Part shown: positions 11,666 to 28,128 of the stretch, piece by piece
Layout of the letters: the number at the start of each line of letters is the position of its first letter
How positions within the stretch are numbered: the first letter of the stretch is position 1
Source: a virus
IMG/VR virus record: IMGVR_UViG_3300050821_002972
Span: 1 to 30,287 of that record
Strand: one strand, 5' to 3'
DNA length: 30,287 nucleotides
Position numbers and translations under genes: made by a program
The notes under the pieces: model-generated
Database searches by the model: none
Told to the model about the DNA's origin: nothing
The model's input: only the letters and a program-made list of their open reading frames with translations

Positions 11666-12484
11666 CTACTCTTCGTCGCCGCTCGACTTCCGATAATCGC
11701 ATCCGCAATCGCAACCTGGGTGTGCGGTCGGCGCATCGTCGCCGCTGTCGAAGGAATCCTCGATGTCTATCCAGCCCTGATCGGCGTTCGCCTGACACTC
11801 GGGGCACGCATCGCCGTCCGGGTCCCAACGCTTCTCGTCGAGCCCAGCTTCGACAGCGATCTGTTGGCGCGCTCCCGAATATGCGTCATTCGCCTCAGTC
11901 CTCGCGATTAGTTCGGCCCGGGTGGTGGTAAAGTCTTCGAACTCATCTGTAATCGCTTTGACCATCGAGTCGTAGTCGCCGCCCTTGTCCCAACTGGTCG
12001 CCAGCGCGTCCTGCAATCGCTCGATGCTAGTGCGATCCAGACCGCCAGTGAGCTTGCTCAGCGAGTGCTCAGCCAAGTAGTCGCCCGCGAAGTCGGGACC
12101 TGCCGTGGCTCCCAGACTCTTCGCGGCAGCGCCGATCAGATCCGTGATGGCCTCGTTGTACTCGCTGGTTTCGCCGGCGGTCGGCGAGAATGACAGCGGG
12201 TGCAGCGATGTCGGCATGAGTTGACGCGCGAAGGTCTTTCCTTGCTGCGACGACTCTTTGAGGTTCGGCGGGTAGAGCACGAGCTCGCGCTTGATCTTCG
12301 GTGCGACGGCCGCGAGCACAGCCTTGCGTTGCCGCTCGAAGAAATGCACCATCACGCGCTTTATCGCGGCGCGCGCTGGCTTGACGTGGACCGCGTGTTT
12401 CGGATGGCGCAGTCCTTTCGGCGCGCTCTTTTCGAGCAGCGCGGCCAGCTCGTTCGCGGCCTCAGTGATGGCGCGCAGGCTCAT
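11666..12484 (-). CDS. Mu F-like minor head (head morphogenesis) protein
   Basis: ATG 12484 (MSLRAITEAANELAALL, 272 residues) overlaps the upstream stop as ATGA. The C-terminal third carries the family signature: ELIARTEANDAYSGARQQIA, then KRWDPDGDACPECQANADQG, IDIEDSF, and HPGCDCGCDYR. The Arg-Thr-Glu motif and the Cys/His set are those of Mu gpF and SPP1 gp7 proteins, which bind the portal and enter the prohead with it. Position close to the portal agrees. The N-terminal basic helical region is variable in the family. Confidence 0.85.
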   Translation of the reverse strand: MSLRAITEAANELAALLEKSAPKGLRHPKHAVHVKPARAAIKRVMVHFFERQRKAVLAAVAPKIKRELVLYPPNLKESSQQGKTFARQLMPTSLHPLSFSPTAGETSEYNEAITDLIGAAAKSLGATAGPDFAGDYLAEHSLSKLTGGLDRTSIERLQDALATSWDKGGDYDSMVKAITDEFEDFTTTRAELIARTEANDAYSGARQQIAVEAGLDEKRWDPDGDACPECQANADQGWIDIEDSFDSGDDAPTAHPGCDCGCDYRKSSGDEE

Positions 12485-12612
12485 TTCGGTGCCCCGCAAT
12501 TACGACAATATCCAGTCACTTTAGCGTTCTCTGTCTTGCAGTAACTGCAAGACCACGTGCTTTTTGGTGGCAACGGAACTGTCTTCCATGGGACAGGCGG
12601 AGGTGGCGGCAT
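12481..12612 (-). CDS. Tiny zinc-ribbon protein
   Basis: A 43-residue gene fits exactly between its neighbours: ATG 12612 lies four bases after the TAA of the KTSC gene, and its TGA overlaps the next ATG. The protein starts with MPPPPPVPWKTVPLPP, a proline-rich tail, then a zinc ribbon CSYCKTENAKVTGYCRNCG and ends APK. The CxxC...CxxC spacing and the exact overlap argue that it is real despite its size. Role unknown; a proline-rich arm plus zinc ribbon suggests protein-protein contact. Confidence 0.65.
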   Translation of the reverse strand: MPPPPPVPWKTVPLPPKSTWSCSYCKTENAKVTGYCRNCGAPK

Positions 12613-12616
12613 GTAT

Positions 12617-13138
12617 TTACCATCGCGGCTTCACAATCGCCACCGCTGGCTTGCATCGCCAGTATCGATTTGGCCAGAGGATCTCGAGCGCAAACTCCTG
12701 TCCGCACTGGCCGCACGACATGATCGTCGCGTTGGGGAACTTTGCAAGGCTCTTGTCCAGCGACATGCGACAACACGGGCTTGCTTCCTCGTCGATCACG
12801 TTGAGCGGGCCGGGCGACGGTGACGCGTTGCCGCCCGGCTCAGCTACTGAAACGGGGTCGACATCGTTTGGCCGTTCAGTTGGCATCACCCCTTTCGAGA
12901 TCATGATTCCCGGCATCGCCGTGACGCGCGCCCAAGTGGCCATCCATTGGCCTTTGCTCACGGCCATCTGGAGAGATTCCCAATTCGGTGGTTGCACGCC
13001 ACCCCACGCCCACAGCGCGCCGTCTTTGTACCGCACGAGCAGCACGCGCTCTGCCTGCAAGTACCCGATAGCCGCGATGTGCGAGGATTCAACGGGCGTG
13101 AGTGCGAGAGCAACTCCGGGTGCAGGCTGTAAAGTCAA
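12617..13138 (-). CDS. KTSC-domain protein with C-terminal zinc ribbon
   Basis: A TTG at 13138 is the start, preceded by GGAGG with a four-base gap, and overlaps the portal stop (TTGA). The 173-residue product has a KTSC-like domain at residues 14-75 (ESSHIAAIGYLQAERVLLVR, then KDGALWAWGGV), a Pro/Gly linker, and a zinc-ribbon-like region with SPCCRMSL and SCGQCGQEF (about 118-150). KTSC domains occur in small bacterial and phage proteins, often fused to nucleic-acid enzymes; their biochemical role is unsettled. Placement directly after the portal suggests a packaging or head role. Confidence 0.65.
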   Translation of the reverse strand: MTLQPAPGVALALTPVESSHIAAIGYLQAERVLLVRYKDGALWAWGGVQPPNWESLQMAVSKGQWMATWARVTAMPGIMISKGVMPTERPNDVDPVSVAEPGGNASPSPGPLNVIDEEASPCCRMSLDKSLAKFPNATIMSCGQCGQEFALEILWPNRYWRCKPAVAIVKPRW

Positions 13139-15135
13139 TCGTCCTCCTTATCGTCTGCCAGATGCACCGCGACAGCCTCATTCAGTCGCGCCGTGGCCCG
13201 CAATATCGCCTCTTTGACCGCAGGCTGCGCGGGCTGCTCGCCGGTCTGTGTTGCCACAGTCGCCTGCACCGCGCCGGGTTGCGGCTGCACACCCGCGACA
13301 GGCTGAGCCTTTTGGATCGGCGGCGGAAGCTCTTCTTTGGCCCTATTGGGGTCGTACTTGTCTTTGCCGCTCGTCGGGTACATTTTCTCGATCAACTCTT
13401 CGGCATTCTCTAGGCCAAGTTGCTTCATCAGCCAGAGGATACCGGCCCGCTCATCCACGCCGACGATCTGACCGCCCTTGTTGGCCAGAGTCAACGCTTG
13501 CACGCCCGCGCCGATCAACGTTGCCATGTCGCCCTCGCGGATCGCAGGGAACTGCACACGCACCTCGATGACATCGGGCTGCTTTTGCTTCGCTTCACGG
13601 AATCCCCAATAGCGCGCGCCAGACGGCGTGGTTGCGATCTTGCGCTCTGCCGCCACGATGCGTATCTTCACGCCTTTCGCAACTTCGCGCAGTTTCCCGC
13701 CCGGCGCTTTCGCACTCTGCGACAGCATGTACGACATTCGGACGGTGATATCCTCAATCCACTCTTCCTGGATGCTGAGGAACACGGTTTCTGTCGGCCG
13801 ATCCAAACTGGTGGCCGTCGCCAAGTTGCCGGTCGACACGTCGCCCAAAAATGTTTCCGGCATGCCGAGGCACATGCAACAAAACAGCAGATAGCGGCGC
13901 ACCTTCTCGGGGTCAAGCCCGGCGCCCTGCGTCGAGAATGCCTTCAACGTGGTGCCGGGGCCGCTCACGAATCCGCCGCCCGCTACCGCCTCCGGGTTGG
14001 TGTCGTAGATCGGCGAGCCGGGGCCCACCTGCGTTTGCATCTGCTGTTTGATGCCCTCGATGGCTTGTTGGCCACCCTTCGTGGTCACCACCGTGGCCCA
14101 CTGTGCCAGCGATTGCGCCACCGATGCGCACGACTCCAGATAGTGGCGCGACTCCTTCGCCCAGTCGATCATCGGGTACATCGGCGGGCAGCCAAACAGC
14201 CACTTACCCACTGTGCCGATCTTGCGGTGGTAGACCGGCGAGCCCCACATGACCTCATCGCCGTTGATCGTCGGTGGCTTTACTGGCGGGTCGAAATTGA
14301 TCGCCGGGTACCACGCCTTACGGGTGCGCGTAGCACTCGATCCGCTCTCCGCGTCGTGCGCACGCTGTGTCCAGATGCGCTGGTAGTATTGCGGTACGTC
14401 GGCGTCTTCGGGGTCCGTCCAGATGTCTTGGATCTCGGTCGCGTCGATCAAGCGTTCTTCGCACTCGCCGGTGCCAGGGTCAGTGAAATAGACCCAGAAC
14501 AGATTCCCGTCCGTGACCTTCGAGCGCTGCTGCGCAGTGAGCGCGACGTGGCCAAAGGTCTTCGCATTGTTTTGCAAAATCTGCTTAATTACGTCGTTGG
14601 CGTCTTCGTCGTCCGTCGTGACATCGAACCCTCGGGCGAACGTGTATTGCGCGATCACATCCACCAAGCGGCGCGGAATCGGATTCTTTATGTAGTACAG
14701 GCGACAAATGAGAATGATTTGCTGAATGCCCCACCGCGTGAATTCGAGCCACGAGTAGTTTATCTCGCGTTGCCACTGCACGTTTTGCAGGATCAACTCG
14801 TACATGCCGTAAGCGCCGATTGGGTTCACGTCGCCGATTGGTCCCGCCTCTTGCAGACCTAGCGATTCCGCCACGCGCACGGGCAGCCGCACCTGGGGCA
14901 CATCGCGGCCGCCGAGGTTCTGCGCTTGCCACGGGCCCGAGCCGCACATGCTCTGCGCCTCGACGATCTCAGCCAAAAACTGGCGTGCCTTTTCGAGTTG
15001 CTCATCTTGGCGCGACTGGCGGGAGGCGAGAGCTTGCGACAGTGCGCGATTCTCAGCGACAAGTGCGGGAACGGGATTGCGCGGGTTGAGCTTGCGCCAA
15101 GCGGCGGCAAGCCAGCGGTTCAGCGTGGCCTTCAT
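13135..15135 (-). CDS. Portal protein
   Basis: ATG 15135 (MKATLNRWLAAAWRKLN) gives 666 residues. It overlaps the preceding stop as ATGA and lies seven bases after an extended -10 box. Typical portal segments include FTRWGIQQIILICRLYYIKN, the helical VDVIAQYTFARGFDV, the stem region RYLLFCCMCLGMPETFLGDV followed by NLATATSLDRPTETVFLSIQ, and a C-terminal Pro/Gln-rich tail. The portal is the dodecameric ring through which terminase pumps DNA. Unlike most phages, the gene does not directly follow terminase: a cassette of about 6 kb separates them. Confidence 0.85.
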   Translation of the reverse strand: MKATLNRWLAAAWRKLNPRNPVPALVAENRALSQALASRQSRQDEQLEKARQFLAEIVEAQSMCGSGPWQAQNLGGRDVPQVRLPVRVAESLGLQEAGPIGDVNPIGAYGMYELILQNVQWQREINYSWLEFTRWGIQQIILICRLYYIKNPIPRRLVDVIAQYTFARGFDVTTDDEDANDVIKQILQNNAKTFGHVALTAQQRSKVTDGNLFWVYFTDPGTGECEERLIDATEIQDIWTDPEDADVPQYYQRIWTQRAHDAESGSSATRTRKAWYPAINFDPPVKPPTINGDEVMWGSPVYHRKIGTVGKWLFGCPPMYPMIDWAKESRHYLESCASVAQSLAQWATVVTTKGGQQAIEGIKQQMQTQVGPGSPIYDTNPEAVAGGGFVSGPGTTLKAFSTQGAGLDPEKVRRYLLFCCMCLGMPETFLGDVSTGNLATATSLDRPTETVFLSIQEEWIEDITVRMSYMLSQSAKAPGGKLREVAKGVKIRIVAAERKIATTPSGARYWGFREAKQKQPDVIEVRVQFPAIREGDMATLIGAGVQALTLANKGGQIVGVDERAGILWLMKQLGLENAEELIEKMYPTSGKDKYDPNRAKEELPPPIQKAQPVAGVQPQPGAVQATVATQTGEQPAQPAVKEAILRATARLNEAVAVHLADDKEDD

Positions 15136-15284
15136 GTGGCTGAGTTTAGCACTGCCCAAACGTACTTGCGCGTGCAACCACCAACCCACTTGGCGATGTC
15201 TCCATGGGTGAGCCACGGAGCCGAAGCCGCGATTAACCGAATCATGCGCTTGCGATTGATCGACGTAAGCTTCTCGGGGATCAC
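15132..15284 (-). CDS. Tiny helix-turn-helix-like protein
   Basis: A GTG at 15284 overlaps the previous stop (GTGA), with AGGAG nine bases upstream. The 50-residue basic protein reads MIPEKLTSINRKRMIRL and then ASAPWLTHGDIAKWVGGCTR, with a spacing that fits the two helices of a DNA-binding HTH (HGDIAKWVG...RKYVWAVLN). Its stop overlaps the portal ATG. It could be a local regulator or a terminase-like DNA-binding fragment. It is too short for a family call. Confidence 0.5.
   Translation of the reverse strand: MIPEKLTSINRKRMIRLIAASAPWLTHGDIAKWVGGCTRKYVWAVLNSAT
15143..15151 (-). promoter_or_regulatory. Extended -10 promoter for the portal gene, leaderless
   Basis: The minus strand reads TGCTAAACT at 15151-15143, and ATG 15135 follows after seven bases. 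It lies inside the coding sequence of the tiny HTH-like gene and would restart transcription of head genes after the glycan cassette. Confidence 0.5.
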
Positions 15285-16129
15285 GGTAGCGGACTCCTCG
15301 TGTCTTTCCAGTACAGCAGTTTCGCCGGATCCCACGTGAAGTCGAACCCAGGAGGGTATTGGTCGTAGTGGACTCCCCAACCCTTCGCGTGCTCCTCCAT
15401 CCGGCGCCGGGCGAGTCGCGTTTCCATCTTTCGCCGCGCCTGCTCGGGCGTGCGGAACGGGTAGTGCTTCATGGTGAACTTCTGCGGGTAGACGCGCATG
15501 CCGGGGAATGTGACCTCGTGGCCACCGCCGGCCAACTGCACGCGACCCACGTTCTTCCAGAGCTTGCGGTTAGGGATTCGTGATATGCAGTCGGACTCGT
15601 CGTAGCGCGTGAAGTACTTCTCCGGGTCCATGGCTTCCTGGTGCCATACGCCATCTATCATTTTGCCGCACCTGGGCCATCCGTCGTCGATGCAGTAGAA
15701 TTGGAACACGCGGAAGTCGATGGCGTTGTAGCGCATCGCGTCGATACGGTTGACTTCCTGCGACAGCGTATAGATCGCCTGCGGAGCGGCAGACCTTGAG
15801 AACCTTAACGGGGGATCAAAGGAAACTGCGCGCCGCCACTCATCCGCGTCCGTGTAAAGGCACCAGTCGGCGTCGGACTCCGCAGCCAGATCCTCGATGC
15901 GCTTCAGAATCGCGGTGCAATTCTGTATCGAGTCGCGACCGGTCGCGGGAAATCGTTCGCACGTCACGCCGATGCAGCCCGCGCTGGCTTGCTCCGCAAT
16001 CTCCCAACTGCCGTCGGTCGACCACCCGTCGATCACATGCACCGCGCAGCCCTGCTCATGCAGATGGCGCAGCGTGTGCGGGAGGACGTCGGCCTCGCAA
16101 AAAACAGGAACAAACGCTTGTATCTTCAC
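15281..16129 (-). CDS. Glycosyltransferase, GT-A fold (family 2-like)
   Basis: The start is a GTG overlapping the upstream stop. The 282-residue protein begins MKIQAFVPVFCEADVLPHTL, a GT-A opening strand, then HVIDGWSTDGSWEIAEQ, the usual 'D..StDgt.e' nucleotide-sugar loop. The metal-binding DxD motif is in DWCLYTDADEW (about residue 90). The C-terminal part has PYR-type aromatic residues and a basic helix RRKMETRLARRRMEEHA. It would transfer a sugar from a nucleotide donor; acceptor unknown. It is the last enzyme gene of the cassette before the portal. Confidence 0.75.
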   Translation of the reverse strand: MKIQAFVPVFCEADVLPHTLRHLHEQGCAVHVIDGWSTDGSWEIAEQASAGCIGVTCERFPATGRDSIQNCTAILKRIEDLAAESDADWCLYTDADEWRRAVSFDPPLRFSRSAAPQAIYTLSQEVNRIDAMRYNAIDFRVFQFYCIDDGWPRCGKMIDGVWHQEAMDPEKYFTRYDESDCISRIPNRKLWKNVGRVQLAGGGHEVTFPGMRVYPQKFTMKHYPFRTPEQARRKMETRLARRRMEEHAKGWGVHYDQYPPGFDFTWDPAKLLYWKDTRSPLP

Positions 16130-16389
16130 TGCGGCACTCCGTCACAACGGATCTCATCAATAGCACTGGCATCCATCGCGAGCACCGCGTATCCAGTTGG
16201 ATTACATAGGCTACCGTCGACGCGCCCTGTGACTCCGATGAATGCCCCAACAGCCCACCAAGACGGAGACCATTCGCCCATGCCTGCGGAGTTTCGGTAA
16301 TCGATCAACGTGACGCCGCGCCGCGCGCATTTCTGAATAGGCCCTGTGGGCTGTCCCGCCACGTGTACTCTGGTCTGAAGTTCCTTCAC
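16126..16389 (-). CDS. Hypothetical protein in the glycan cassette
   Basis: An 87-residue product starting MKELQTRVHVAGQPTGPIQK from a GTG that overlaps the epimerase stop; its own stop overlaps the next GTG. It contains a short Trp-rich hydrophobic stretch (EWSPSWWAVGAFIGVTGRVD) and looks like a small beta domain. No family is recognised. The two four-base overlaps with enzyme genes show it belongs to the cassette. Confidence 0.55.
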   Translation of the reverse strand: MKELQTRVHVAGQPTGPIQKCARRGVTLIDYRNSAGMGEWSPSWWAVGAFIGVTGRVDGSLCNPTGYAVLAMDASAIDEIRCDGVPQ

Positions 16390-17240
16390 AGGGCCAAGCC
16401 CTCCTCGATGCTCTTGAATTCGTACGCCCCGATGATCGACAGCAGCCGCGTTGTGTCGGCGCGCGTGAAAAATTGGTAGCTCGCCGGATCGGGAATTGCA
16501 CGGTATTCGATCTTAGGCGTAGGCTTCTGATCGACGCCGATCAGTGCAGCGAGCCCATTGAAGCCTGTCGCCACGCCCGTGCCCACGTTGACGATGCCGG
16601 TCGCGTCCGACTCGATCAGCCGCATGATGCACTCCACGACATCCGACACGTGGATAAAGTCCTTGGCCTGCGTCCCGTCGCCGTAGATCACGATTGGCTC
16701 GCCGCGTTCTTTCGCGATGCGCATCCACGTCGGCGGCGCTTGCTTGCCGGGTGCCTTGAGTTCGTCGCCCGCGCCGTACGCGTTGAAGATCCGCAGCCCG
16801 AGGCAGTTAACGCCAGCGGTCTGGTATGATGCCGCCATCATCTCGTTCATGAGTTTCGATTTCGCGTAGTGGCTGTGAACGTCGCGCGGGTCGATTGTGT
16901 CATGCTCCCAGTTATCCCTGATGTCAGGACGGTATACCGCGCTGCTGCTGGCGTACACCACGCGAGCGCCACTCTGTGCAGCGAGTCGCAGCACGTTCCA
17001 CGTGCCCATCACGTTGCAGGCGTAGTTGTCGGCCATATTGTCCGCGAACCCCGCGTTGCTGCTGTACGCCGCGAGGTGCAGCACGACGTCGCACTCCATG
17101 CGGGTCAGAAGCCGCACATCGGCATTGCGCGGTGGTCGAGCGCGGATGTCCAGCGAGTCAACCTCCCACCCGCGTGCGAGCGCTGCTTTGACCGCGTACG
17201 AACCGATGAATCCGACTGAGCCGGTGATTAGGAGCTTCAT
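16386..17240 (-). CDS. NAD-dependent nucleotide-sugar epimerase/dehydratase
   Basis: The 284-residue protein is an extended short-chain dehydrogenase of the UDP-sugar epimerase type. It has the Rossmann motif GSVGFIG (7-13), Asp31 at the end of strand 2 for NAD, VLHLAAYSS (54-61), YASSSAVY with the catalytic Ser region (97-103), and the Tyr125-x3-Lys129 pair in HYAKSK. LRIFNAYGAGD and IYGDGTQAKDFIHVSDV are typical of sugar epimerases. It would make or interconvert a nucleotide sugar used by the neighbouring glycosyltransferases. The exact sugar cannot be told. It is slightly shorter than GalE. Confidence 0.85.
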   Translation of the reverse strand: MKLLITGSVGFIGSYAVKAALARGWEVDSLDIRARPPRNADVRLLTRMECDVVLHLAAYSSNAGFADNMADNYACNVMGTWNVLRLAAQSGARVVYASSSAVYRPDIRDNWEHDTIDPRDVHSHYAKSKLMNEMMAASYQTAGVNCLGLRIFNAYGAGDELKAPGKQAPPTWMRIAKERGEPIVIYGDGTQAKDFIHVSDVVECIMRLIESDATGIVNVGTGVATGFNGLAALIGVDQKPTPKIEYRAIPDPASYQFFTRADTTRLLSIIGAYEFKSIEEGLAL

Positions 17241-17405
17241 TTAGTCTTCTCTTGGTATGGCTCGGATGGCCCGTACCACACGCCACCATGCGAAACACAC
17301 GATGCCGCTGAATGCCTCCAGCGGAACATTTCCCCAAGCCATCTTTGCCATAAAGGCTAATATCACCACTCCCGTCAATGCCAGCACAAAATTGAGTATT
17401 TTCAC
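17241..17405 (-). CDS. Tiny two-segment membrane protein
   Basis: GTG 17405 with GGAG eight bases upstream gives 54 residues. Two hydrophobic segments are seen (ILNFVLALTGVVILAFMA at 3-20, and AFSGIVCFAWW at 31-41), followed by a basic tail. The TAA abuts the epimerase ATG. It could anchor cassette enzymes to the membrane, but there is no direct evidence. Confidence 0.55.
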   Translation of the reverse strand: MKILNFVLALTGVVILAFMAKMAWGNVPLEAFSGIVCFAWWRVVRAIRAIPRED

Positions 17406-17410
17406 GCCTT

Positions 17411-17959
17411 CTACTCCCTCCACCAAAACCTTCCGTGCGTCTGCCGATCCGGCACGCACTCATCGACCGCGCGAATCACACCGGCCACGCTCGGCAGTTC
17501 GACGTCGTAGTCATCGCCGCACAGTACCTTGCGTGCGAGTGGCCCGTACATCTCGATATCTTGCTTCGCGCCTTCGTAAGTGTGGTCACCGTCAAGGTAC
17601 ACAAGGTCGTAAGACGAGGCGATGGGCAGCACGTCATGAGAATTCGCCACCATCCAGTAGAGCCGGTCGCCGTCGTACAGGCCAGCGGCTATCGTGTTGG
17701 CGATGAATTTCTTGTAGACGCTGTACAGTCCGTGCTCGGGGATGTCTCCCCAGGTGTCAATGCACGTCACGCGCTCGACGCGCTGTGCAAACCAGATCGC
17801 TGAGCAGCCGTAGCACGTGCCGATCTCCAGCACCGTGCGGATGTCGTGCTTGCGTATCAACTCTTCGAGCTTCTGCGCCACGTGCGGGTACAGCCACGCG
17901 TCCATCGGTTCGCCGTAGCGCCACGGCGTGAGCGGTAGGTGGGTCACTTCCTCCTCCAT
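17411..17959 (-). CDS. SAM-dependent methyltransferase 1 (Methyltransf_24-like)
   Basis: The 182-residue class I methyltransferase has VLEIGTCYGCSAIWFAQRV as the SAM-binding loop (about residues 43-61), VTCIDTW after strand 2 with an acidic residue, and DLVYLDGDHTYEGAKQDIEM (about 117-136), the signature of the TylF/Methyltransf_24 group. Members methylate hydroxyls of sugars in antibiotics and surface polysaccharides. It is paralogous to the gene at 18039-18656, sharing SAIWFAQRVE/SAVWFAQRVE and a terminal FWW/FWYW. It probably methylates the product of the cassette's glycosyltransferases. Confidence 0.8.
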   Translation of the reverse strand: MEEEVTHLPLTPWRYGEPMDAWLYPHVAQKLEELIRKHDIRTVLEIGTCYGCSAIWFAQRVERVTCIDTWGDIPEHGLYSVYKKFIANTIAAGLYDGDRLYWMVANSHDVLPIASSYDLVYLDGDHTYEGAKQDIEMYGPLARKVLCGDDYDVELPSVAGVIRAVDECVPDRQTHGRFWWRE

Positions 17960-18042
17960 CGAATATCGTCTAGGATCAGTCGCACTAACATGTAAGTCGT
18001 GCCTACAATTATTGCCAGATCCCTGAAACCCGCAATGGTCAT
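17944..18042 (-). CDS. Possible 32-residue membrane peptide between the methyltransferases
   Basis: ATG 18042 overlaps the stop of methyltransferase 2 (ATGA). The reading frame gives MTIAGFRDLAIIVGTTYMLV followed by RLILDDIRWRRK and stops 16 bases inside methyltransferase 1. It has one hydrophobic segment with a basic end. The overlap pattern is the same as that of the neighbouring genes and supports it, but it is small enough to be chance. Confidence 0.4.
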   Translation of the reverse strand: MTIAGFRDLAIIVGTTYMLVRLILDDIRWRRK

Positions 18043-18656
18043 GGTCGCACCCAGTACCAAAACGGCCCTACGTGCTGCGCGTCTGGCAGTAGTCTGTTGA
18101 CAGCCTCGATGACACCGAACGCTGGGGTTACTCCGTCGGACTCATAGCGCACGGAGTAGTCGTCGCCGCATAAACAAACCCGCGCCTTGTCCTGGTAGAT
18201 CTCGATGTCGCGGCACACCGAGCGGTAATCGTGGCGCGCATCCAGATACACCAGGTCGGCCACAGGCACCTCACCGTGGACGTAGTGCGAGTCGCCTTTG
18301 ATCGGCGTGATCTTGTGCCACACGCCCGAGCGCATCACGTTGGCGCGGAACAGTGGGAAGAAATCGCGCGGCAGGTCCCATCGGCGCAACGTGCCTACGA
18401 GGTTATTTTCCGACTCATAAGTGGCTCCTTCGAACCACGTGTCGACGCAGTGGACTTGTTCGACGCGCTGCGCGAACCAAACAGCCGACAGCCCGAGGAA
18501 AGAACCAACCTCGACTACCGATTTGATATTGCACTTGATTATCAACTTTGCCAGATTCAAGCGGTTCTCGCGGGCGAACCAGCCCGGTATTGGGATTGAC
18601 TGACCCAAAAGCAAATCATCATCGTAGACCGGATAACTGAGAGCAGAATACTCCAT
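18039..18656 (-). CDS. SAM-dependent methyltransferase 2 (Methyltransf_24-like)
   Basis: The 205-residue protein shares architecture with methyltransferase 1: VVEVGSFLGLSAVWFAQRV as SAM loop, VHCVDTW, and ADLVYLDARHDYRSVCRDIE in place of DGDH. It ends in GPFWYWVRP. The GDH to ARH change in the acidic loop may alter metal or substrate binding, although related phage proteins carry DARH too. The ATG overlaps the preceding glycosyltransferase stop by one base (TAATG). Two diverged paralogs in tandem suggest methylation at two positions. Confidence 0.78.
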   Translation of the reverse strand: MEYSALSYPVYDDDLLLGQSIPIPGWFARENRLNLAKLIIKCNIKSVVEVGSFLGLSAVWFAQRVEQVHCVDTWFEGATYESENNLVGTLRRWDLPRDFFPLFRANVMRSGVWHKITPIKGDSHYVHGEVPVADLVYLDARHDYRSVCRDIEIYQDKARVCLCGDDYSVRYESDGVTPAFGVIEAVNRLLPDAQHVGPFWYWVRP

Positions 18657-19399
18657 TACTTTGACCTCGACTTTCCCGGCGCGAAGCCGTGCCCTTCCGG
18701 CCAGTGGCCGTGAATCTCCGTGAACAGGTCTTCGTGCGCCCTCACATCGTGCGGGTGCGCGGGGTCGTGCCGGAACGTGGACTTAAGCCCCGTGGACTCT
18801 GGCAGGTGGTCGACCAGCACGCCATCGTACACGCCGAGCTTCAGTCCAGCCTGACAGATGCGCAGCGAGTAGTCGTCGTCCTCGAGCCCGTAACCGCGGG
18901 CGCCCGGACCGCCGGCGTTCACGCCAAACCGCTCGTCGAGCAGTCCAACGTGATCGATGGTGCTGCGCGGGATGTAGACGCACGCGAACACGAGCATCGG
19001 ACTGGCCTCGCGCAACTCGCCACGACCGCGATTGACCAGGCTTGGCGTGCCCACTGACCCGTGCGTGAATCCTGGACAGATCGCGCCGAACGCGGGGTGC
19101 ATGATGCGCTGGAGCAACTCGAAACCGCGCGTCGTCCGCAGAAGCGCATCGTCATTCATCAGCACCACGTCGTCAGTGCCTGCCGCGCGGATGCCTTGAT
19201 TGACTGCGCGCGCGAACACAAAGGGATCGAGTCCCTGAATGAGGTCGATTGGGCCAAGCGAAAAGTACTCTTGCCATGAACTGTTAAGGCCGTCGTCAAT
19301 AACGATGATGCGTCCCGCTTCGCCCATCGCGCGGATCTGCCGCACGCACGCGGTCAGGTTGGCGATGCTGCGGCTCGGTATGATTACGCTGTAACTCAT
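18656..19399 (-). CDS. Glycosyltransferase, family 2
   Basis: ATG 19399 (MSYSVIIPSRSIANLTACVR) overlaps the HNH stop. The 247-residue protein has the GT2 pattern: SVIIPSR at the start, RIIVIDDGL (acidic donor-binding residues), FARAVNQGIRAAGTDDVVLM and then NDDALL as the metal-binding motif. Further on, CVYIPRSTIDHVGLLDERFG and GLEDDDYSLRICQAGLKLGV are characteristic of rhamnosyl- and related transferases. It would extend a glycan from a nucleotide sugar. Confidence 0.82.
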   Translation of the reverse strand: MSYSVIIPSRSIANLTACVRQIRAMGEAGRIIVIDDGLNSSWQEYFSLGPIDLIQGLDPFVFARAVNQGIRAAGTDDVVLMNDDALLRTTRGFELLQRIMHPAFGAICPGFTHGSVGTPSLVNRGRGELREASPMLVFACVYIPRSTIDHVGLLDERFGVNAGGPGARGYGLEDDDYSLRICQAGLKLGVYDGVLVDHLPESTGLKSTFRHDPAHPHDVRAHEDLFTEIHGHWPEGHGFAPGKSRSK

Positions 19400-19782
19400 C
19401 TTGCCATCTCCAAGCCTGTCCACACGCGAGTGCGCGAAGTACCGCCGCGCGAACGCCCTCTTGAGTGTCGGTCTTTTACGTTAGCGATATTGTCACCGAA
19501 GTAAAGATGGTCCGGGTTGAAGCATCGCGGTTCGTCACACTTGTGCAGGACGTGAATGTCACTGCGGGAAAGATCTAGCCCCATCCATACGGCGGCAGCA
19601 ACGCGCTGTACTTGAACCGCCTTGGACGTCTTGTCAGTGCGACTGCCGATGTGGATGTAACCGTATGGCAAGTACGGCTTGTTTTTTGTGGCACGCTTTG
19701 TGTAGCCGGTCCACAACCAACAGCCAGAGGCTACAACGGCGCGATGCTTAAGGAGTCTTTCGGCGGCGGTTCCAAGGTTCAT
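19396..19782 (-). CDS. HNH endonuclease (homing type)
   Basis: ATG 19782 (MNLGTAAERLLKHRAV, 128 residues) overlaps the upstream stop, and its own stop overlaps the next gene. It has the HNH_3 layout: CWLWTG (21-26), PYGYIHIG, the helix VQRVAAAVWMGLDL, then VLHKCDEPRCFNPDHLYFGD with His80, Asn89 and His92, and a C-terminal NVKDRHSRGR. Such enzymes nick DNA and often spread themselves between phages. No intron or intein borders are visible, so this is a free-standing gene inside the cassette. Confidence 0.82.
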   Translation of the reverse strand: MNLGTAAERLLKHRAVVASGCWLWTGYTKRATKNKPYLPYGYIHIGSRTDKTSKAVQVQRVAAAVWMGLDLSRSDIHVLHKCDEPRCFNPDHLYFGDNIANVKDRHSRGRSRGGTSRTRVWTGLEMAR

Positions 19783-20366
19783 TTTATGGCTTCCAGAATG
19801 GCGGTGAATTTCCAGACCTCGCACTTACAAGATCCAGCCATCTCAGTGTAACTTCTCTCAGTGATGGAATGGACTTTGAATCGTGCAGAAATACCGTAGG
19901 ACTCATGGAACCTTTTCCATGCTGGCGATCCATCTTGAAAGTACTGGATTCCGTTGGGAGTCCAAGGTTGGACGTGCGTGCAATCCTGCCACTGCCCCGC
20001 GCCCTTCGCCGCGTCGGGGCACTCCATCGCGAGGATGCCGCCGGGCTTCAACACGCGCCACGCCTCATTCATCACGTGGATGCGGCCAGACCAGTGACGA
20101 TATCGTATCTCGTGGTAGTTGGGGCAGCACTTCTGACACTTCATGCGCCACGTGTGATCGCAATCGCCGATGTGCTCGAAAATATCCGCGGCGTAGATCT
20201 CCTCGACGCTGGAGTCTTTCCACGACCAAGGTAGCCCCAGGTCGAATAATGCTATCCTGGCGTCCGCGATGGGCACGTCGGAAGTGCTCTGCGTCGGCGC
20301 GACGAGATCCACGTTGATGCAATCGCCGCCGCGCAAATCGGTAGAGCATCCAAGATTCAAGCGCAT
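19779..20366 (-). CDS. SAM-dependent methyltransferase 3 with cysteine-rich insertion
   Basis: The 195-residue class I methyltransferase starts MRLNLGCSTDLRGGDCINVD (glycine loop and acidic strand 2), followed by DSSVEEIYAADIFEHIG and AWRVLKPGGILAMECPDAA, typical of Methyltransf_11 proteins found in polysaccharide clusters. Between the EHI helix and 'HVMNEAWRVLKPGG' lies an insertion CDHTWRMKCQKCCPNYHEIR with four Cys and two His that may bind zinc. The ATG overlaps the upstream glycosyltransferase by ten bases. The substrate is probably a sugar or lipid-linked glycan by context. Confidence 0.75.
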   Translation of the reverse strand: MRLNLGCSTDLRGGDCINVDLVAPTQSTSDVPIADARIALFDLGLPWSWKDSSVEEIYAADIFEHIGDCDHTWRMKCQKCCPNYHEIRYRHWSGRIHVMNEAWRVLKPGGILAMECPDAAKGAGQWQDCTHVQPWTPNGIQYFQDGSPAWKRFHESYGISARFKVHSITERSYTEMAGSCKCEVWKFTAILEAIK

Positions 20367-21211
20367 CGCATTTTCTCCTCAGCGTACTTGTCCCACTCCG
20401 GCGCCCTTCGCCACAAGTCGGGGTTGCGCAGCATCACGGCGCGGTCGTAGCCCTCAGTGTTACTCGTGTGTATGCCGCAGATCATGCGCGGCCCACACTT
20501 CGTAGCCGTCTGTAGCGGGTCGCCAAGTGGATCTTTCAGCGAAGACACGCTCACGCACTCTCGGCTCACCATCTCCGTGCGCATCCACCGCGTGTCCTCG
20601 TGCGGCGCGTCGTCGAAGGGCTGCCGCTCCCAGAGAGATCTGGCATACATGAGGCTCGCGCCCGCCGCCCAGTTCGCCTGGTGGTTGCGGTAGAGCCACG
20701 CTTTGTTGGTTGGGTCTGCATATGGCGATCCAAGATCAGCCCATCGTGTGTCCCAGAAAAGCAACTCACGAAAGCCGACACACATCTTGCCGGAGGCCTC
20801 CAGCAGCGCGACTTGCTCTTCGAGACGGCGCGCGTGCGAAATATCGTCGCTATCAAAATGCGCAATGAGGTCACATGACATGGCCTGCGCGCCAATGCCA
20901 GCAAAGTTCCTCAAAGCCCCGATGGTTTTGTAGTGGTTGGCAGACACAGTCAACTGCACTTCGCTCGGGATCGCATCGAACGGCATGAACGAGTGTTGTA
21001 CGCCGTGACAGATCGTTTGTGCTAGGCGAGGTGGTCTGCCGGGATTGCCCATCAGCGTGGCATGCGTGACGCCGTTATCGCTGAGATCGGATGCCACGAT
21101 CAGCAGCCGCTTGCGTTCGTAAGTCTGCGCGCGGAAGCTCGCAATCGCGCGCTTGACCATCTCAGGTCGCCCGTTTACCAGCAACACCGCACACACGGTT
21201 GGTTGGCTCAC
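20357..21211 (-). CDS. Glycosyltransferase, family 2 (first of the cassette)
   Basis: GTG 21211 (MSQPTVCAVLLVNGRPEMVK) overlaps the preceding stop. The longer upstream frame is just read-through of the preceding gene. The 284-residue protein has a GT-A core: RPEMVKRAIASFRAQTYERK, then LRNFAGIGAQAMSCDLIAHF followed by DSDDISH as the DxD motif, and GASLMYARSLWERQPFDDAP with HEDTRW as the usual catalytic E-D-x region. The C-terminal part is variable with several Cys. It probably starts or extends a glycan chain. Confidence 0.8.
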   Translation of the reverse strand: MSQPTVCAVLLVNGRPEMVKRAIASFRAQTYERKRLLIVASDLSDNGVTHATLMGNPGRPPRLAQTICHGVQHSFMPFDAIPSEVQLTVSANHYKTIGALRNFAGIGAQAMSCDLIAHFDSDDISHARRLEEQVALLEASGKMCVGFRELLFWDTRWADLGSPYADPTNKAWLYRNHQANWAAGASLMYARSLWERQPFDDAPHEDTRWMRTEMVSRECVSVSSLKDPLGDPLQTATKCGPRMICGIHTSNTEGYDRAVMLRNPDLWRRAPEWDKYAEEKMRCA

Positions 21212-21378
21212 CGCAGGTCCCTCGCTTTCAGCGGCCCGTTGTAGCCTGGGTGCTCGTATTGCTCGCCGCAGACGACGCATTCGTAAGTGCGACCGCCGGC
21301 GAACATAATGCCACCAGCGTGGAAGTATCTGCAGTGCCAGCGCTTGAGCCGGCGCGCCATGCCTCGGATGCGGCGCAT
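21208..21378 (-). CDS. Small basic zinc-binding protein
   Basis: The 56-residue product starts MRRIRGMARRLKRWHCRYFH. It carries an HCRYFHAGG turn and YECVVCGEQYEHPGYNG, giving a possible C/H/C/C metal site. Its ATG overlaps the RHH gene's stop (TGATG), and its TGA overlaps the glycosyltransferase GTG. No family is recognised; the basic N-terminus suggests nucleic-acid or membrane contact. Confidence 0.6.
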   Translation of the reverse strand: MRRIRGMARRLKRWHCRYFHAGGIMFAGGRTYECVVCGEQYEHPGYNGPLKARDLR

Positions 21379-21524
21379 CACTTCGCCGCCTTTCGCTCGT
21401 CGCGCTCTGTCTTCTCTTCGATGGCTTTCGCGACCCATTGCTTGAATACCATCCCGCCCTTGATTGCCACAATCCGAGCGCGTTTGAAAACGTCATCCGG
21501 CACTACCGTGTGAACTTGCGCCAT
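21378..21524 (-). CDS. Ribbon-helix-helix-like regulator, first gene of the cassette
   Basis: The 48-residue protein starts MAQVHTVVPDDVFKRARIVA, then IKGGMVFKQWVAKAIEEKTE. This matches the Arc/MetJ ribbon-helix-helix outline: one beta strand (residues 4-8), helix A with a basic face, a turn 'KGG', and helix B ending in a charged tail. Such proteins bind DNA as dimers and repress their own promoters. Its ATG lies only ten bases after the -10 box, and the promoter spacer contains a short inverted repeat, so autoregulation is likely. The assignment is from pattern only. Confidence 0.55.
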   Translation of the reverse strand: MAQVHTVVPDDVFKRARIVAIKGGMVFKQWVAKAIEEKTERDERKAAK

Positions 21525-21533
21525 ACGAGGATT

Positions 21534-21602
21534 GATACTACACGATACGTTCGGTATCTGTCAATAGCGTTTAGTCCCTAAATACCGTAGGTTTGTATCG
21601 TG
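21534..21602. promoter_or_regulatory. Phased GATAC/GTATC operator
   Basis: The 5-mer GATAC (or its complement GTATC) occurs at 21534, 21544, 21554 and 21595. The first three lie exactly ten bases apart, one helical turn, and cover the -10 box and spacer. 21544-21558 is a perfect inverted repeat with a five-base centre, and CACGATAC at 21541 is answered by GTATCGTG at 21595. Confidence 0.55.
21535..21564 (-). promoter_or_regulatory. Sigma-70-type promoter of the glycan cassette
   Basis: On the minus strand a perfect TTGACA (21564-21559) and TAGTAT (21540-21535) are 18 bases apart. Transcription would start about three or four bases before ATG 21524. Confidence 0.65.
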
Positions 21603-21616
21603 ATGATTCGGCACAG

Positions 21617-21646
21617 TTGACAGGCAGCTCGCAATGTCATTACAAT
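21617..21646 (+). promoter_or_regulatory. Strong promoter facing into the 3' end of the terminase gene
   Basis: On the plus strand TTGACA (21617-21622) and TACAAT (21641-21646) are 18 bases apart. The predicted start, near 21653, would give RNA antisense to the terminase large subunit gene. No plausible plus-strand protein gene follows. The remaining 21525-21742 gap shows no gene. Confidence 0.5.
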
Positions 21647-21742
21647 CGTGCGTTCGCGCGCGATAAGCCCGGAGATTTAATACTCTTGTGTTCTTCTCCC
21701 GCGCTTCGCACGGACGCGACCAGCAAGCTGTGCTTCGTCCCG

Positions 21743-23152
21743 TTATATCGGGCTGATCTGATACCCGCGCGATCCCATCTGGATGACCTGTTCACGGGGC
21801 ACGCACTTGCAGAACGCCATGACTTGCGCTTCTGCCCGATCTGGCGATGCGATTCCGCGTTTGCGCGCATCTTCCTTCGGCTCGACTTGGATTTGTCCGC
21901 GCGAGAGCTCCCGGTACTCGACTGCCGACAGTTGCGCCTTCACGTCCTCGTCAATCGCGCTGGGCATGTGCGACACGTAATTGATTTTGTGGCAATCGCG
22001 CAGCCGGAAATACGCTTCAGCTTTCGCGTTCAGAAACTGCTCTGAGTCCATCGCGGCCGCGCCGGCTTTGAATCCGCGCACATCGAAACGCTGGTCGGCC
22101 AGGTGCAGCGCGATGCCGTGGCCGACGCCAACCGTGTCCACCACCACTGGACCGAGCGCGTAGCCAAATCGCTTCAGCGCATGGATCCAGGCGACCAGTG
22201 ACCCGCGCGGATCCGCCTCACTCCACGCGGCGCGGTCCAGCACTATGCCATTTACGCGGGCGCAGGCTGCCGTTTCGTCGTCGCCGCCCGCCGCGACGTC
22301 TACACCCACCTGAACGAGGCAGCCCTTAGAGCGCCTTATTTCCTCTTCCGTGGGCTCGCGGTCGGCGCGCTCGATCCAGGCAAGCGAAAAGACTGCCCAC
22401 TGGCCCTGTGTCGGGAATTCGCCCATCACGCGGCTTTGAAAGCGGGGATTCTGCGGACCCCACTTGAAGTACATCTCCTTGACCCAGCGGCGCCGTGTGA
22501 GCCACGGGAACGGCGCGTAGTCAAGCGCCTCATCGGGGAGTGCCAGCAACTCTTCGAGCGTCAGGCCTTGCAGGTTAGGTGTGTCGAATGCGGAAATCGT
22601 GATGCACTGGTGGCCAGGAGTGGCGCGGAACTTCGCGAAGTCATCAAACACCGGACCGCTTGGCACGGTCGGATTGCAGAGTTTCACGACACTCACGTCG
22701 CCGGCGGATCGGATTCCCTCGATGGCGTCGTAAACGTCAGGGCCGACTCCGATTGCCTCATCGATGATAATCACGACGCGCTTGCCGTGGTAGCCCTGCG
22801 CATTGACGCCTTTCGCAGAACTGAAGCCCTGCGCGTAGCACTTCGGCGTGATCTCCCATCGCGTGGTGGTCGGGATCGGTACGCGGTACGGCAGCTTGTC
22901 GATTGCCTCGATCACTTCGCCCCAACCGGTCTTTACCTGGCGCAGCGTCGGAGCCATCCACAGCACAACGATTTCATCGTTTCCGCTGCATTGGTATGGC
23001 ACCATTCCCGAGACGACGAAGGTCTTTCCCGATCCGTGGCAGCCCTTGATTGAGACGCTGCGCTTGGTTGCGATAGCGCGACAGATCTGCTGTTGCTTGT
23101 CCCAGAGTCGGCGCCTGAGAAACTTGTGCTGGAAGGTTACTGGGTCAAGCAT
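21743..23152 (-). CDS. Terminase large subunit
   Basis: The 469-residue protein has the two-domain layout of phage packaging motors. The ATPase domain has Walker A GCHGSGKT (37-44) and Walker B VVIIIDEA (Asp131, Glu132). The RNase H-like nuclease has GVDVA (Asp285), VVVDTVG (Asp339) and SPDRAEAQVMAF (Asp438) as the acidic triad. It cuts concatemers and drives DNA through the portal. The ATG at 23152 overlaps the 3' end of the small-subunit gene by eight bases. Its stop codon ends within a short imperfect palindrome without a U-tract, so no terminator is called. Confidence 0.93.
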   Translation of the reverse strand: MLDPVTFQHKFLRRRLWDKQQQICRAIATKRSVSIKGCHGSGKTFVVSGMVPYQCSGNDEIVVLWMAPTLRQVKTGWGEVIEAIDKLPYRVPIPTTTRWEITPKCYAQGFSSAKGVNAQGYHGKRVVIIIDEAIGVGPDVYDAIEGIRSAGDVSVVKLCNPTVPSGPVFDDFAKFRATPGHQCITISAFDTPNLQGLTLEELLALPDEALDYAPFPWLTRRRWVKEMYFKWGPQNPRFQSRVMGEFPTQGQWAVFSLAWIERADREPTEEEIRRSKGCLVQVGVDVAAGGDDETAACARVNGIVLDRAAWSEADPRGSLVAWIHALKRFGYALGPVVVDTVGVGHGIALHLADQRFDVRGFKAGAAAMDSEQFLNAKAEAYFRLRDCHKINYVSHMPSAIDEDVKAQLSAVEYRELSRGQIQVEPKEDARKRGIASPDRAEAQVMAFCKCVPREQVIQMGSRGYQISPI

Positions 23153-25841: not shown

Positions 25842-26039
25842 TTACCGCGCTCTCGCCGCGGCATCAAGGTACATCTTCGCTGTGCCACGAAAGTGTTGTG
25901 AGTTTCCCATGTTTTCCATATTCTTCAGCGCCGCGCGGTACGCCTCGTTCGGGCTGGCGCCGGCGTAGATCAGCGGAATCGCGATGCGGTCGAGCGCGCG
26001 TGCGGTCTTGATGATCGCTTCCTTTTCGGCGTTGCTCAT
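25842..26039 (-). CDS. Small helical hypothetical protein
   Basis: A 65-residue protein starting MSNAEKEAIIKTARALDRIA, followed by IPLIYAGASPNEAYRAALKN and a short basic tail. It is all-helical with one hydrophobic turn. The ATG overlaps the DpdA-like stop (ATGA). Its first residues resemble an 11-residue peptide encoded at the other end of the DpdA-like gene. After it come 118 bases without a gene. Confidence 0.5.
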   Translation of the reverse strand: MSNAEKEAIIKTARALDRIAIPLIYAGASPNEAYRAALKNMENMGNSQHFRGTAKMYLDAAARAR

Positions 26040-26773
26040 ACATAGTCCTCAATCAAATGAGATTGGTACTCGCACTCTTGACTGATCGTGGATACAAACC
26101 CCTGTGCCTCGCGCCAATCATTCGCGTTGCCTCCATTCCGCCGAGCTGCGAAACTCCATGCCATCGAATCAGCGGTCTCCAGTAGAGCGCGGATCACGCC
26201 ATTCGCAAGCGCCGTAGTCTTCAGACCGAATCCGTGTAGCCGTAAGTCCGGGCGCTCCGTTTTTATCGCGATCAGAACGTTGAGAATAGCCCTTGGGTCG
26301 CCGTTGCGCTTGCAGACACTGCCGACACCGACCCACGCACCCGGTTCCAGCCGGTCGCCATACTGACGAATGTGACTCACATAATCGTCAGGCGCATAGC
26401 CCTGCAGCACAGGCATGATGTAACAGCCTGTATCGCAGCGCAACAGGTCGTCATAGCGTGCAATAGTTAGACCCTGGTGGTCTGCAATGGTCATCCCCGT
26501 TTTCGCGAGCATCGCGGGCTCGCACATATAGTCCTGCGCGACGGCCGCCAGCAGGTTACCACACTGTTTCCAGCGCCGAATCTGAGCCGCGTATTCCTCG
26601 ACTGGTTCCGGGTATCCGCCATGCACCAAGATCGTTGAGAATGCCCCGCTATCGAGAATCCAATCCGCAACCTTGAAATCACTCTTGCGGTTTCGCAGGC
26701 GCACCACGGACACGAACGCGGCATTGAAGTGCTGTGCGTCCGATGGTTGGTGGAGTCCGACAAAAAACCTCAT
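26036..26773 (-). CDS. dpdA: DpdA-like deazaguanine DNA transglycosylase (TGT superfamily)
   Basis: ATG 26773 gives 245 residues. Motifs of the TGT/DpdA superfamily follow in order: LDSGAF (Asp41), IADHQGLTIARYDDLL (96-111), PVLQGYAPDDYVSHIRQYGD (121-140), VGVGSVCKRN (148-157), LRLHGFGLK (177-185) and ADSMAWSFAARR (201-212). Phage DpdA proteins replace guanine in DNA by a 7-deazaguanine, an anti-restriction modification. Precursor synthesis genes are not in the window. It is shorter than bacterial TGT and lacks the TGT zinc site. A cytosine methyltransferase gene lies directly upstream, linked by a tiny overlapping peptide. Confidence 0.75.
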   Translation of the reverse strand: MRFFVGLHQPSDAQHFNAAFVSVVRLRNRKSDFKVADWILDSGAFSTILVHGGYPEPVEEYAAQIRRWKQCGNLLAAVAQDYMCEPAMLAKTGMTIADHQGLTIARYDDLLRCDTGCYIMPVLQGYAPDDYVSHIRQYGDRLEPGAWVGVGSVCKRNGDPRAILNVLIAIKTERPDLRLHGFGLKTTALANGVIRALLETADSMAWSFAARRNGGNANDWREAQGFVSTISQECEYQSHLIEDYV

Positions 26774-26805
26774 ACGCAGGTTCGCTCTTTCTCGGCGTTC
26801 GTCAT
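26770..26805 (-). CDS. Possible 11-residue coupling peptide
   Basis: ATG 26805 overlaps the methyltransferase stop (ATGA). The frame reads MTNAEKERTCV and stops with a TGA that overlaps the DpdA-like ATG. It could keep ribosomes on the message between the two modification genes. It also resembles the start of the 65-residue protein after dpdA (MSNAEKEA), so it may be a decayed copy. Confidence 0.35.
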   Translation of the reverse strand: MTNAEKERTCV

Positions 26806-27839
26806 GGCTTGAGCACCCGTGCAATGTAACTCGCTAGGGGAAATGGAATCTTCGCGATCTGGGCGCTTGCTGCCTTGCGGGAGTCGGACTGAGAGGAATG
26901 CTTGGCGATGTCTTGATCGAACCACTCAGGGCCGCTGCCGTGCTGTTTGACGCCGTTCACTGGGTTCTTCCCCGTGCCTGATTCGGTGTTGTGCGCCACG
27001 TCGAACCAGGAGCCTCCGGTATTCTTCGAGCCCGCCAATTGCAGGGCGGCCGCCACGCTCTCTTCGTGCTCTGCCCCGTGGAACGAAGGCGAGGGGATGC
27101 CGTACTTTTCGGGAAAGTGAAAATTCCGGCCGGCCTGTTTCCGCGTTCGCCGCGCTGCCTTCACGGTCTGTCCGAACTGCGGCATTCCCGCGACTACCTG
27201 CCCGCCAACCATGGCCACGTCGCCCCAGAAATAGAAGCTCCCGAAGTTCGCGTTCGCTCTGCCGACCCACGGTTGGGCGCCCTTGACGTTCTCGACTACC
27301 ATCGGGATGTGTCGGCCGGCAGTTTCGCACGCCTCCCGCTGGATGCGAAAACAGGCGTCAAAGAGGGCCTTCAGTTCGGGGATGGTGCGTGAGCCGACGT
27401 ACCCTTCGGGAAACGCACCTTTTCCTCTCAGCGCCGCCGCAATCTGCTTTGCTCGACTCCAGGGCATCGCCATGTACGAATACTCTTGGCAGGGCGGGGA
27501 AGCTACGATGCAGTCGGCATTTCGGAATTGCTTGCCGTCCAGCGTGAGCACGTCTTGGATCACGAGTTGCGCGGGGTATTCTGACCACCCGCCAACAAGT
27601 GGCGATTCGCGCAGCCTGCGGGTATTCGTGGAGTGGAATGTCTCTCCCCTGAAGTCTGGATGCGCGGGGTTCCATATAATATTGCCGGCCTTTATGCCGT
27701 CCGACGAATCCGCCAACGCATGGGCCTGGTAACGGTGGCGCTCGATGTCGAATCCCACCACGTCCCAGCCTTCAGAAAGGAAGCCTTCCGACCAGCCCCC
27801 GAGCCCGCAAAAGAGATCAATGCACAGCGGCTTACCCAC
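26802..27839 (-). CDS. DNA cytosine-5 methyltransferase
   Basis: GTG 27839 (or TTG 27842) starts a 345-residue enzyme. Motif I is DLFCGLGGW (8-16), motif IV SPPCQEYS with the catalytic Cys117, and motif VI ENV (183-185). A C-terminal KIPFPLASYIARVLKP looks like motif X. Between them is a Trp/Gly-rich region with ASPP and FYFWGDVAMVGGQVVAG. It would methylate C5 of cytosine in a specific sequence, protecting phage DNA or competing with host restriction. No cognate endonuclease gene is adjacent. The 3' end is coupled to the DpdA-like gene. Confidence 0.85.
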   Translation of the reverse strand: MGKPLCIDLFCGLGGWSEGFLSEGWDVVGFDIERHRYQAHALADSSDGIKAGNIIWNPAHPDFRGETFHSTNTRRLRESPLVGGWSEYPAQLVIQDVLTLDGKQFRNADCIVASPPCQEYSYMAMPWSRAKQIAAALRGKGAFPEGYVGSRTIPELKALFDACFRIQREACETAGRHIPMVVENVKGAQPWVGRANANFGSFYFWGDVAMVGGQVVAGMPQFGQTVKAARRTRKQAGRNFHFPEKYGIPSPSFHGAEHEESVAAALQLAGSKNTGGSWFDVAHNTESGTGKNPVNGVKQHGSGPEWFDQDIAKHSSQSDSRKAASAQIAKIPFPLASYIARVLKP

Positions 27840-28128
27840 CAATCGCCCCCGCCACCCGCGCCGCGAATCGCTCGTTCAGCCGGGCGAACAGCACTCCCTG
27901 TTTGCGCGCAGCCTCCGACATCACGCCGCCCAGTGCGCACGCCTGCATGCTGCCCCAGCCTCCGTGCGGCTTGGCGAGCGCATCCGGCACAGCGATGGCC
28001 CGCTCTCGCTTCTCGGGCACGTGGGCACCCGCCGCGATGCGCCGGTCGCGCTCGCGGTGCTTGCACGTCGGACAGCGCCCGCACTCGCAGCGGAGGCGTG
28101 AATTGGGAGTGCCTTTAGCGCGTGGCAA
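27832..28128 (-). CDS. Small zinc-binding protein
   Basis: TTG 28128 preceded by AGGAG with a seven-base gap lies inside the end of the resolvase gene and gives 98 residues. Residues 13-21 are CECGRCPTC followed by KHRERDRR, a tight four-Cys cluster with a basic helix, seen in small phage proteins near resolvases. The C-terminus is helical and Ala-rich. Its stop overlaps the methyltransferase start by a few bases. Confidence 0.55.
   Translation of the reverse strand: MPRAKGTPNSRLRCECGRCPTCKHRERDRRIAAGAHVPEKRERAIAVPDALAKPHGGWGSMQACALGGVMSEAARKQGVLFARLNERFAARVAGAIGG

Follow-up and report, generated by a model that had tools for sequence, protein, structure and literature searches.

A probable methylated-glycan locus between the terminase and portal genes of an uncultivated phage and its relatives

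Background

To our knowledge, virion glycosylation is documented for just a handful of cultured phages, and we know of no variable glycan locus previously described as anchored between the terminase large subunit (TerL) and portal genes. Here we describe an interval in this place in IMG/VR record IMGVR_UViG_3300050821_002972, a linear phage fragment of 30,287 bases (b), which was analysed at its full length and is called the window. The interval (15136-21742, 6.6 kb) encodes glycosyltransferases, methyltransferases and a nucleotide-sugar enzyme, and is probably a phage glycan locus that decorates a virion protein with a methylated glycan.

The closest described arrangement is that of phage Corndog, in which an O-methyltransferase and three glycosyltransferases encoded beside the portal gene are proposed to modify the capsid (PMC4351075). 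Enzymes of cluster O mycobacteriophages are stated, in a passage of PMC11600133 that cites Freeman et al. 2023, to modify the capsid and tail tube. The Corndog-type locus (Corndog gp35-gp38; JangDynasty genes 33-36) is similar to the present one in having a Methyltransf_24/TylF-type O-methyltransferase and tandem glycosyltransferases, embedded on the same strand in a virion operon, which here has TerL and portal as flanks. The O-methyltransferase encoded by JangDynasty gene 33 matches PF13578, as do the tandem methyltransferases of the window, MT24a and MT24b, and a further likeness is the HNH gene adjoining TerL. However, the Corndog-type locus consists of four genes situated between portal and protease, not between TerL and portal, and the present locus additionally possesses an epimerase, two further methyltransferases, a universal glycosyltransferase (GTA) and a middle part that varies across the clade.

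Similar to the cassettes described here, the gtr serotype-conversion operons of temperate enterobacterial phages are small operons with phage-encoded glycosyltransferases that vary among relatives. The gtr products include a flippase and multi-pass membrane transferases, whereas the present cassettes encode soluble enzymes according to a hydropathy scan. Bacterial capsule and O-antigen loci provide an organisational analogy, in which the genes at the ends are conserved and those in the middle, for glycosyltransferases, methyltransferases and nucleotide-sugar enzymes, vary. In contrast to them, export and polymerisation genes were not recognised in the present locus, and its flanks are virion genes.

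Gene content and enzyme motifs

In transcription order, the left boundary of the interval is TerL (21743-23152; phrog_2, E-value 5.8e-25; relatives 97, 83 and 77% identical) and the right boundary is the portal gene (13135-15135; phrog_10963, E-value 8.5e-51; relatives 65-99% identical). All genes in the locus are on the minus strand. A first-pass annotation, made from the letters of the window, had proposed a cassette between terminase and portal with three glycosyltransferases, three S-adenosylmethionine (SAM) methyltransferases, an epimerase and an HNH endonuclease; both the position and these enzymes were borne out by Pfam, by phrog_1872 and, for one methyltransferase, by its motif I. Of the fourteen genes that it counted, twelve are supported, because the open reading frame (ORF) of 82 amino acids (aa) at 15132-15380, which overlaps the last glycosyltransferase gene by 100 b, resembles L001, a close relative, inside this overlap only, with no conservation beyond, and is probably no gene.

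Three family-2 glycosyltransferases of the GT-A type are encoded in the cassette. GTA, the TerL-proximal family-2 enzyme (20357-21211), and GTB (18656-19399) match PF00535, and the portal-proximal GTC (15281-16129) matches PF13704 (Glyco_tranf_2_4, E-value 2.6e-7). These matches are above the Pfam cut-off, as are those of both Methyltransf_24 proteins and of the epimerase. In the alignment of GTA homologues, residues D120, D122, D123, R101 and N102 are invariant, and the window copy has intact DSDD and ED motifs. NDD and EDDD are conserved among GTB homologues and intact in the window copy, and GTC has an intact DADE motif, with D94, D96 and E97 invariant among homologues. AlphaFold2 predicted a GT-A fold for GTA (predicted template modelling score, pTM, 0.81) and for GTB (pTM 0.85), consistent with the matches to solved structures.

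The SAM methyltransferase MT24a (18039-18656; PF13578, E-value 3e-10) and its tandem paralogue MT24b (17411-17959; PF13578, E-value 5.5e-12; 39% identical to MT24a) possess motif I (VEVG/LEIG) and the LDxxH and GDDY stretches, which are conserved in the alignment; the motifs of MT24a are invariant in nine sequences. The third methyltransferase, MTcys (19779-20366), a class I SAM enzyme with a Cys/His-rich loop, matches Pfam below the cut-off only, but 10 homologues share an intact motif I, with an invariant LNLGC. The loop itself (DCxH...CxxC...RH) is kept in many homologues and absent in L003, L018 and L021, which points to an optional zinc-binding insertion in this methyltransferase. The NAD-dependent nucleotide-sugar epimerase/dehydratase (16386-17240; PF01370, E-value 5.3e-41) has intact GxxGxxG and YxxxK motifs, and its solved relatives include 6wjb, MoeE5 and UDP-glucuronate decarboxylase. 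A loss of catalytic residues, named in the first-pass annotation as a finding that would refute its reading, was checked by alignment, and the motifs are intact in all cassette enzymes examined.

Conservation of the interval among relatives

The interval was found in about 25 uncultivated relatives, with a constant portal family and several kinds of TerL. In the closer relatives (portal 43-99% identical), TerL and portal are separated by 3.7-13 kb in every genome with both genes in hand; for G003, G005, G029 and G039, this distance was obtained by joining the contig ends, on the assumption of circular permutation. Terminase-portal adjacency, which the first-pass annotation took as the usual state, holds for cultured and distant relatives. 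In the distant IMG/VR relatives L082, L083 and L084 (portal 30-35% identical) the two genes are 8 b apart or overlapping, in L075 the gap is 1.6 kb, and a family-2 glycosyltransferase was absent from the four distant records searched. Among cultured phages with related portals, LuckyBarnes and D_HF5_3 have TerL directly before portal, and in Methanoculleus virus L4768 TerL lies 755 b from portal, with two small ORFs between.

The TerLs of the relatives match best phrog_2-like or phrog_979-like groups. Since TerL of several kinds precedes the same gap, TerL was exchanged and the gap persisted. Such replacement of TerL in an unchanged place is recurrent across the clade; L006, L012, L089 and L090 (G003, G006) possess another TerL type together with a portal and a glycan cassette close to those of the window. 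Many relatives were at first read as missing TerL, which was rejected because other TerL types occupy the same place.

ORFs were called in 26 intervals and clustered, which gave 181 clusters for 343 ORFs. The GTA cluster is present in all 25 close intervals. Two clusters, with 17 and 7 genomes, account for the last glycosyltransferase before portal in 24 of the 25, L003 having neither, and these two clusters are homologous (hhalign probability 96.5, E-value 8.5e-10). The middle of the interval is highly variable: GTB was found in 11 genomes, MTcys in 10, epimerases in 6, and Methyltransf_24 proteins of the window's kind, as pairs or singles, also in 6. Other intervals harbour in their middle FkbM-type methyltransferases, TylF, GDP-mannose dehydratase, RmlD, GFO/IDH oxidoreductases, short-chain dehydrogenases and other glycosyltransferases. 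In this variability, the middle resembles a serotype locus. The intervals of L036 and L046 combine the conserved glycosyltransferase with a C5-cytosine methylase and with a protein of 620-628 aa, for which Pfam gave no match in L036.

Linkage was tested independently by searching IMG/VR with the GTA profile alone, which retrieved at least 80 loci. Among the 70 loci with at least 2.5 kb available upstream of GTA, 67 have a TerL at a distance of 39-2904 b on that side and in the same orientation, and GTA is therefore a dedicated neighbour of TerL. The portal was found downstream of GTA in 30 out of 39 loci with at least 7.5 kb available on that side, and known gaps of 12-13 kb account for at least three of the nine loci without it. 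For GTC-type loci, a portal of this family was present within 4 kb in 32 out of 68 only. The view of an interval held by two anchors looks strong for GTA and weaker for GTC.

These data bear on the possibility that the gap between TerL and portal is a permissive region gathering unrelated accessory genes, with glycan genes as the commonest passengers and no joint product. The many unique ORFs behind the 181 clusters, the HNH genes and the C5-cytosine methylases of L036 and L046 agree with such a mixed cargo. Nonetheless, GTA is universal and tied to TerL, a GTC-type glycosyltransferase recurs at the opposite end, and the additional families (FkbM, TylF, GDP-mannose dehydratase, RmlD, GFO/IDH) are again sugar or methyl enzymes. 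Four of the genes also hold their order in the unrelated phage L279, described below, and we consider a mixed cargo improbable.

Evolution and mobility of the cassette

Compared with L001, the ratio of nonsynonymous to synonymous substitution rates (dN/dS) is 0.15-0.34 for cassette genes and 0.025-0.04 for TerL, portal and capsid. The cassette is thus under purifying selection, which is several-fold looser than that on TerL, portal and capsid. Protein identity to L001 is 57-88% in the cassette versus 97-99% for TerL and portal. A recombinational swap of the L001 cassette was considered and rejected, since the synonymous divergence of cassette genes (MT24b 0.38, epimerase 0.49, MT24a 0.62; GTA and MTcys, with 0.90 and 1.07, left aside) is similar to that of the flanks (TerL 0.59, portal 0.54, capsid 0.41). 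Similar synonymous divergence with lower protein identity means that the cassette proteins evolve faster, with no swap. Judged from these comparisons, the cassette descended vertically between the window and L001 and is fast-evolving.

The HNH endonuclease gene (19396-19824; phrog_1872, E-value 2.9e-20), located between MTcys and GTB, is a local insertion in the window; L001 lacks it, and the two neighbouring genes are contiguous there.

Part of the locus is present in L279, an unrelated phage with TerL of phrog_15, portal of phrog_21 and a fused protease-capsid gene. There, the capsid and tail genes flank homologues of MTcys (41% identical), GTB (47%), MT24a (65%) and GTC (54%), whose order is that of the window. 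Part of the locus therefore moves as a block, again into virion genes. In L279 (4899-9768), the order is a sialyltransferase-like gene (phrog_4603), then MTcys-GTB-MT24-GTC, then an HNH gene homologous to that of the window. The first-pass annotation had proposed a transferable methylated-glycan locus inserted between terminase and portal. Transferability agrees with the clade-wide presence with exchanged contents and with the four-gene block in L279. A recent insertion in the window phage does not, because the interval is common to the whole clade and its synonymous divergence from L001 is flank-like.

Predicted acceptor and mechanism

No flippase, polymerase or multi-pass membrane transferase was recognisable in the cassettes of the 26 intervals. 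The hydropathy scan of the 343 cassette ORFs revealed one protein of at least 100 aa with at least two predicted membrane segments, and none among the cassette proteins of the window. A role at the host surface would require export and would consist in altering precursors of lipopolysaccharide, capsule or teichoic-acid-like polymers, leading to superinfection exclusion or to the release of progeny from receptors. Phage gtr operons modify the host surface in enterobacteria (PMC2909390, PMC3688519), and the fold neighbours of GTA include the wall-polymer enzymes TarP, RmlT and SpsA. However, the intervals also lack a polyprenyl-phosphate transferase and any clear multi-pass protein of normal size, and the cassette keeps its position in the virion operon whatever the TerL type, as does the shared block in L279. 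Modification of a host glycan is therefore unlikely.

Another candidate acceptor is a modified base of the phage DNA, to which sugars would be added during packaging; this would call for a hydroxylated base. The adjacency to TerL is in agreement with this, and so is the presence of DpdA and a C5-cytosine methylase in the window phage. Nonetheless, no thymidylate-synthase-type hydroxymethylase was found in 32 records (fragments), in a search where the positive control matched, and no Tet/JBP oxygenase was found in the same records, in a search where no control genome matched either. DpdA is present in 2 out of 36 related records (the window and G013) versus 30 out of 36 for family-2 glycosyltransferases, so the cassette is independent of DpdA. 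Moreover, simple glucosylation of a base would require neither an epimerase nor tandem methyltransferases of the sugar type. Altogether, DNA modification appears very improbable. The DpdA homologue (PF23859, E-value 5e-44), a 7-deazaguanine DNA base-exchange enzyme, overlaps the C5-cytosine methylase (26036-26824 and 26802-27842, both on the minus strand).

The enzymes are soluble, and neither a flippase or polymerase nor a base-hydroxylating enzyme was found, which favours a cytoplasmic protein as acceptor. The operon place, the soluble enzymes and the Corndog-type precedent favour a virion protein, which is most likely. The GTB fold, as near to polypeptide GalNAc-transferases as to any other solved structure, is in line with this. 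The acceptors listed by the first-pass annotation (capsid, tail, host surface glycan or modified DNA base) are thus no longer equally open: with no export genes, no hydroxymethylase and no tracking of DpdA, a virion-type protein inside the cell is preferred.

We infer the acceptor, a single pathway, the order of its steps and its selective benefit. In the proposed mechanism, the epimerase would make or convert a nucleotide sugar in the cytoplasm, and one glycosyltransferase would add the first sugar to a head or tail protein, on Ser/Thr or on another residue. The best candidate for this step is GTA, as the one that is never lost. GTB and GTC would lengthen the sugar chain, and MT24a, MT24b and MTcys would cap the sugars with methyl groups. 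As the genes belong to the late operon, between TerL and portal, the cassette enzymes would be made together with the particles that they decorate. With GTA and a GTC-type glycosyltransferase fixed at the ends and the middle exchanged, the glycans would differ between related phages whose heads are similar.

Several observations weigh against virion glycosylation as the function of the locus. The intervals of L036 and L046 include a DNA C5-cytosine methylase, so the interval is not restricted to glycan functions. The capsid of L006 is just 67% identical to that of the window, while its cassette and portal are close to the window's; since in L006 and L012 the capsid differs but cassette and portal remain together, no particular virion protein is singled out. 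The fold search with the GTB model retrieved chondroitin polymerase K4CP (Z 18.9) and polypeptide GalNAc-transferase T2 (Z 18.7, 220 residues), and was unable to separate polypeptide GalNAc-transferases from polysaccharide synthases. The Pfam match of GTB is the general PF00535, and its likeness to GT27 comes from the fold only, tied with chondroitin polymerase. The predicted GTB fold is compatible with a protein acceptor and is no proof of it, nor is the shared GT-A fold. Corndog-type glycosyltransferases belong to other Pfam families and gave no significant profile match to those of the cassette, the Corndog side being represented by single sequences only. Searches of cultured phages with the cassette genes (nucleotide and protein) found nothing, and no cultured phage with recognisable GTA, GTC or MT24b was found. 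The close relatives are all metagenome contigs, and their virion is known from genes alone.

More tentatively, the interval might be a clade-wide 'capsid serotype' locus, in which GTA and a portal-side glycosyltransferase frame exchangeable glycosyl- and methyltransferases and sugar-nucleotide enzymes, with GTA as the priming enzyme; virions almost identical in protein would then show different methylated glycans, and blocks would move to the structural operons of unrelated phages. If so, virion glycosylation would be common in the environment, through a clade-wide variable locus tied to packaging genes, and the outer particle glycan would be under selection outside animals, for instance by grazers, host lectins, extracellular polymers or proteases. 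GTA just 3' of TerL would then be a sequence marker predicting glycosylated uncultivated phages, and the soluble, modular glycosyltransferases and methyltransferases of the cassettes would be available for testing.

Small genes, putative promoter and neighbouring genes

The first cassette gene encodes a 48-aa protein (21378-21524), followed by a Cys-rich protein of 76 aa (21208-21438), possibly a zinc protein. Their homologues in L003 are 49% (in the same place) and 52% identical, respectively. An 87-aa protein with no assigned function (16126-16389) has a homologue in L012. Where the first-pass annotation had listed two tiny membrane proteins, the hydropathy scan predicted a helix in one only, the 72-aa ORF at 17241-17459, which clusters with no ORF of a relative and is replaced by a different ORF in L001. 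The overlaps of 1-10 b that the first-pass annotation saw at nearly all junctions hold for most of them; however, some overlaps are longer (46-61 b), and gaps of 79 b and 218 b separate MT24a from MT24b and TerL from the first cassette gene.

The proposed promoter of the cassette corresponds to a real consensus match, TTGACA-18-TAGTAT (10/12 positions; 21535-21564, minus strand), upstream of the first cassette gene. Nevertheless, promoter-like matches in the region are at chance level (4 found vs 3.2 expected) and the sequence is kept only in part in L001 and L012, so the site is putative, and the '-10 box' assigned to the portal gene was not established. An Rfam scan of the window gave no match. 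The host search by TerL, one scan of 84,980 genomes, found no host, with a best match of merely 29%.

The late genes that follow portal on the minus strand encode a Mu-F-like head protein, in our reading a possible protease or scaffold, and the PF25209-family capsid protein (5227-6654). Directly 3' of portal, genes encoding a KTSC-domain protein (12617-13138) and a 43-aa zinc-ribbon protein (12481-12612) are present on the same strand. The KTSC gene is just 45% identical in L001, versus 99% for portal.

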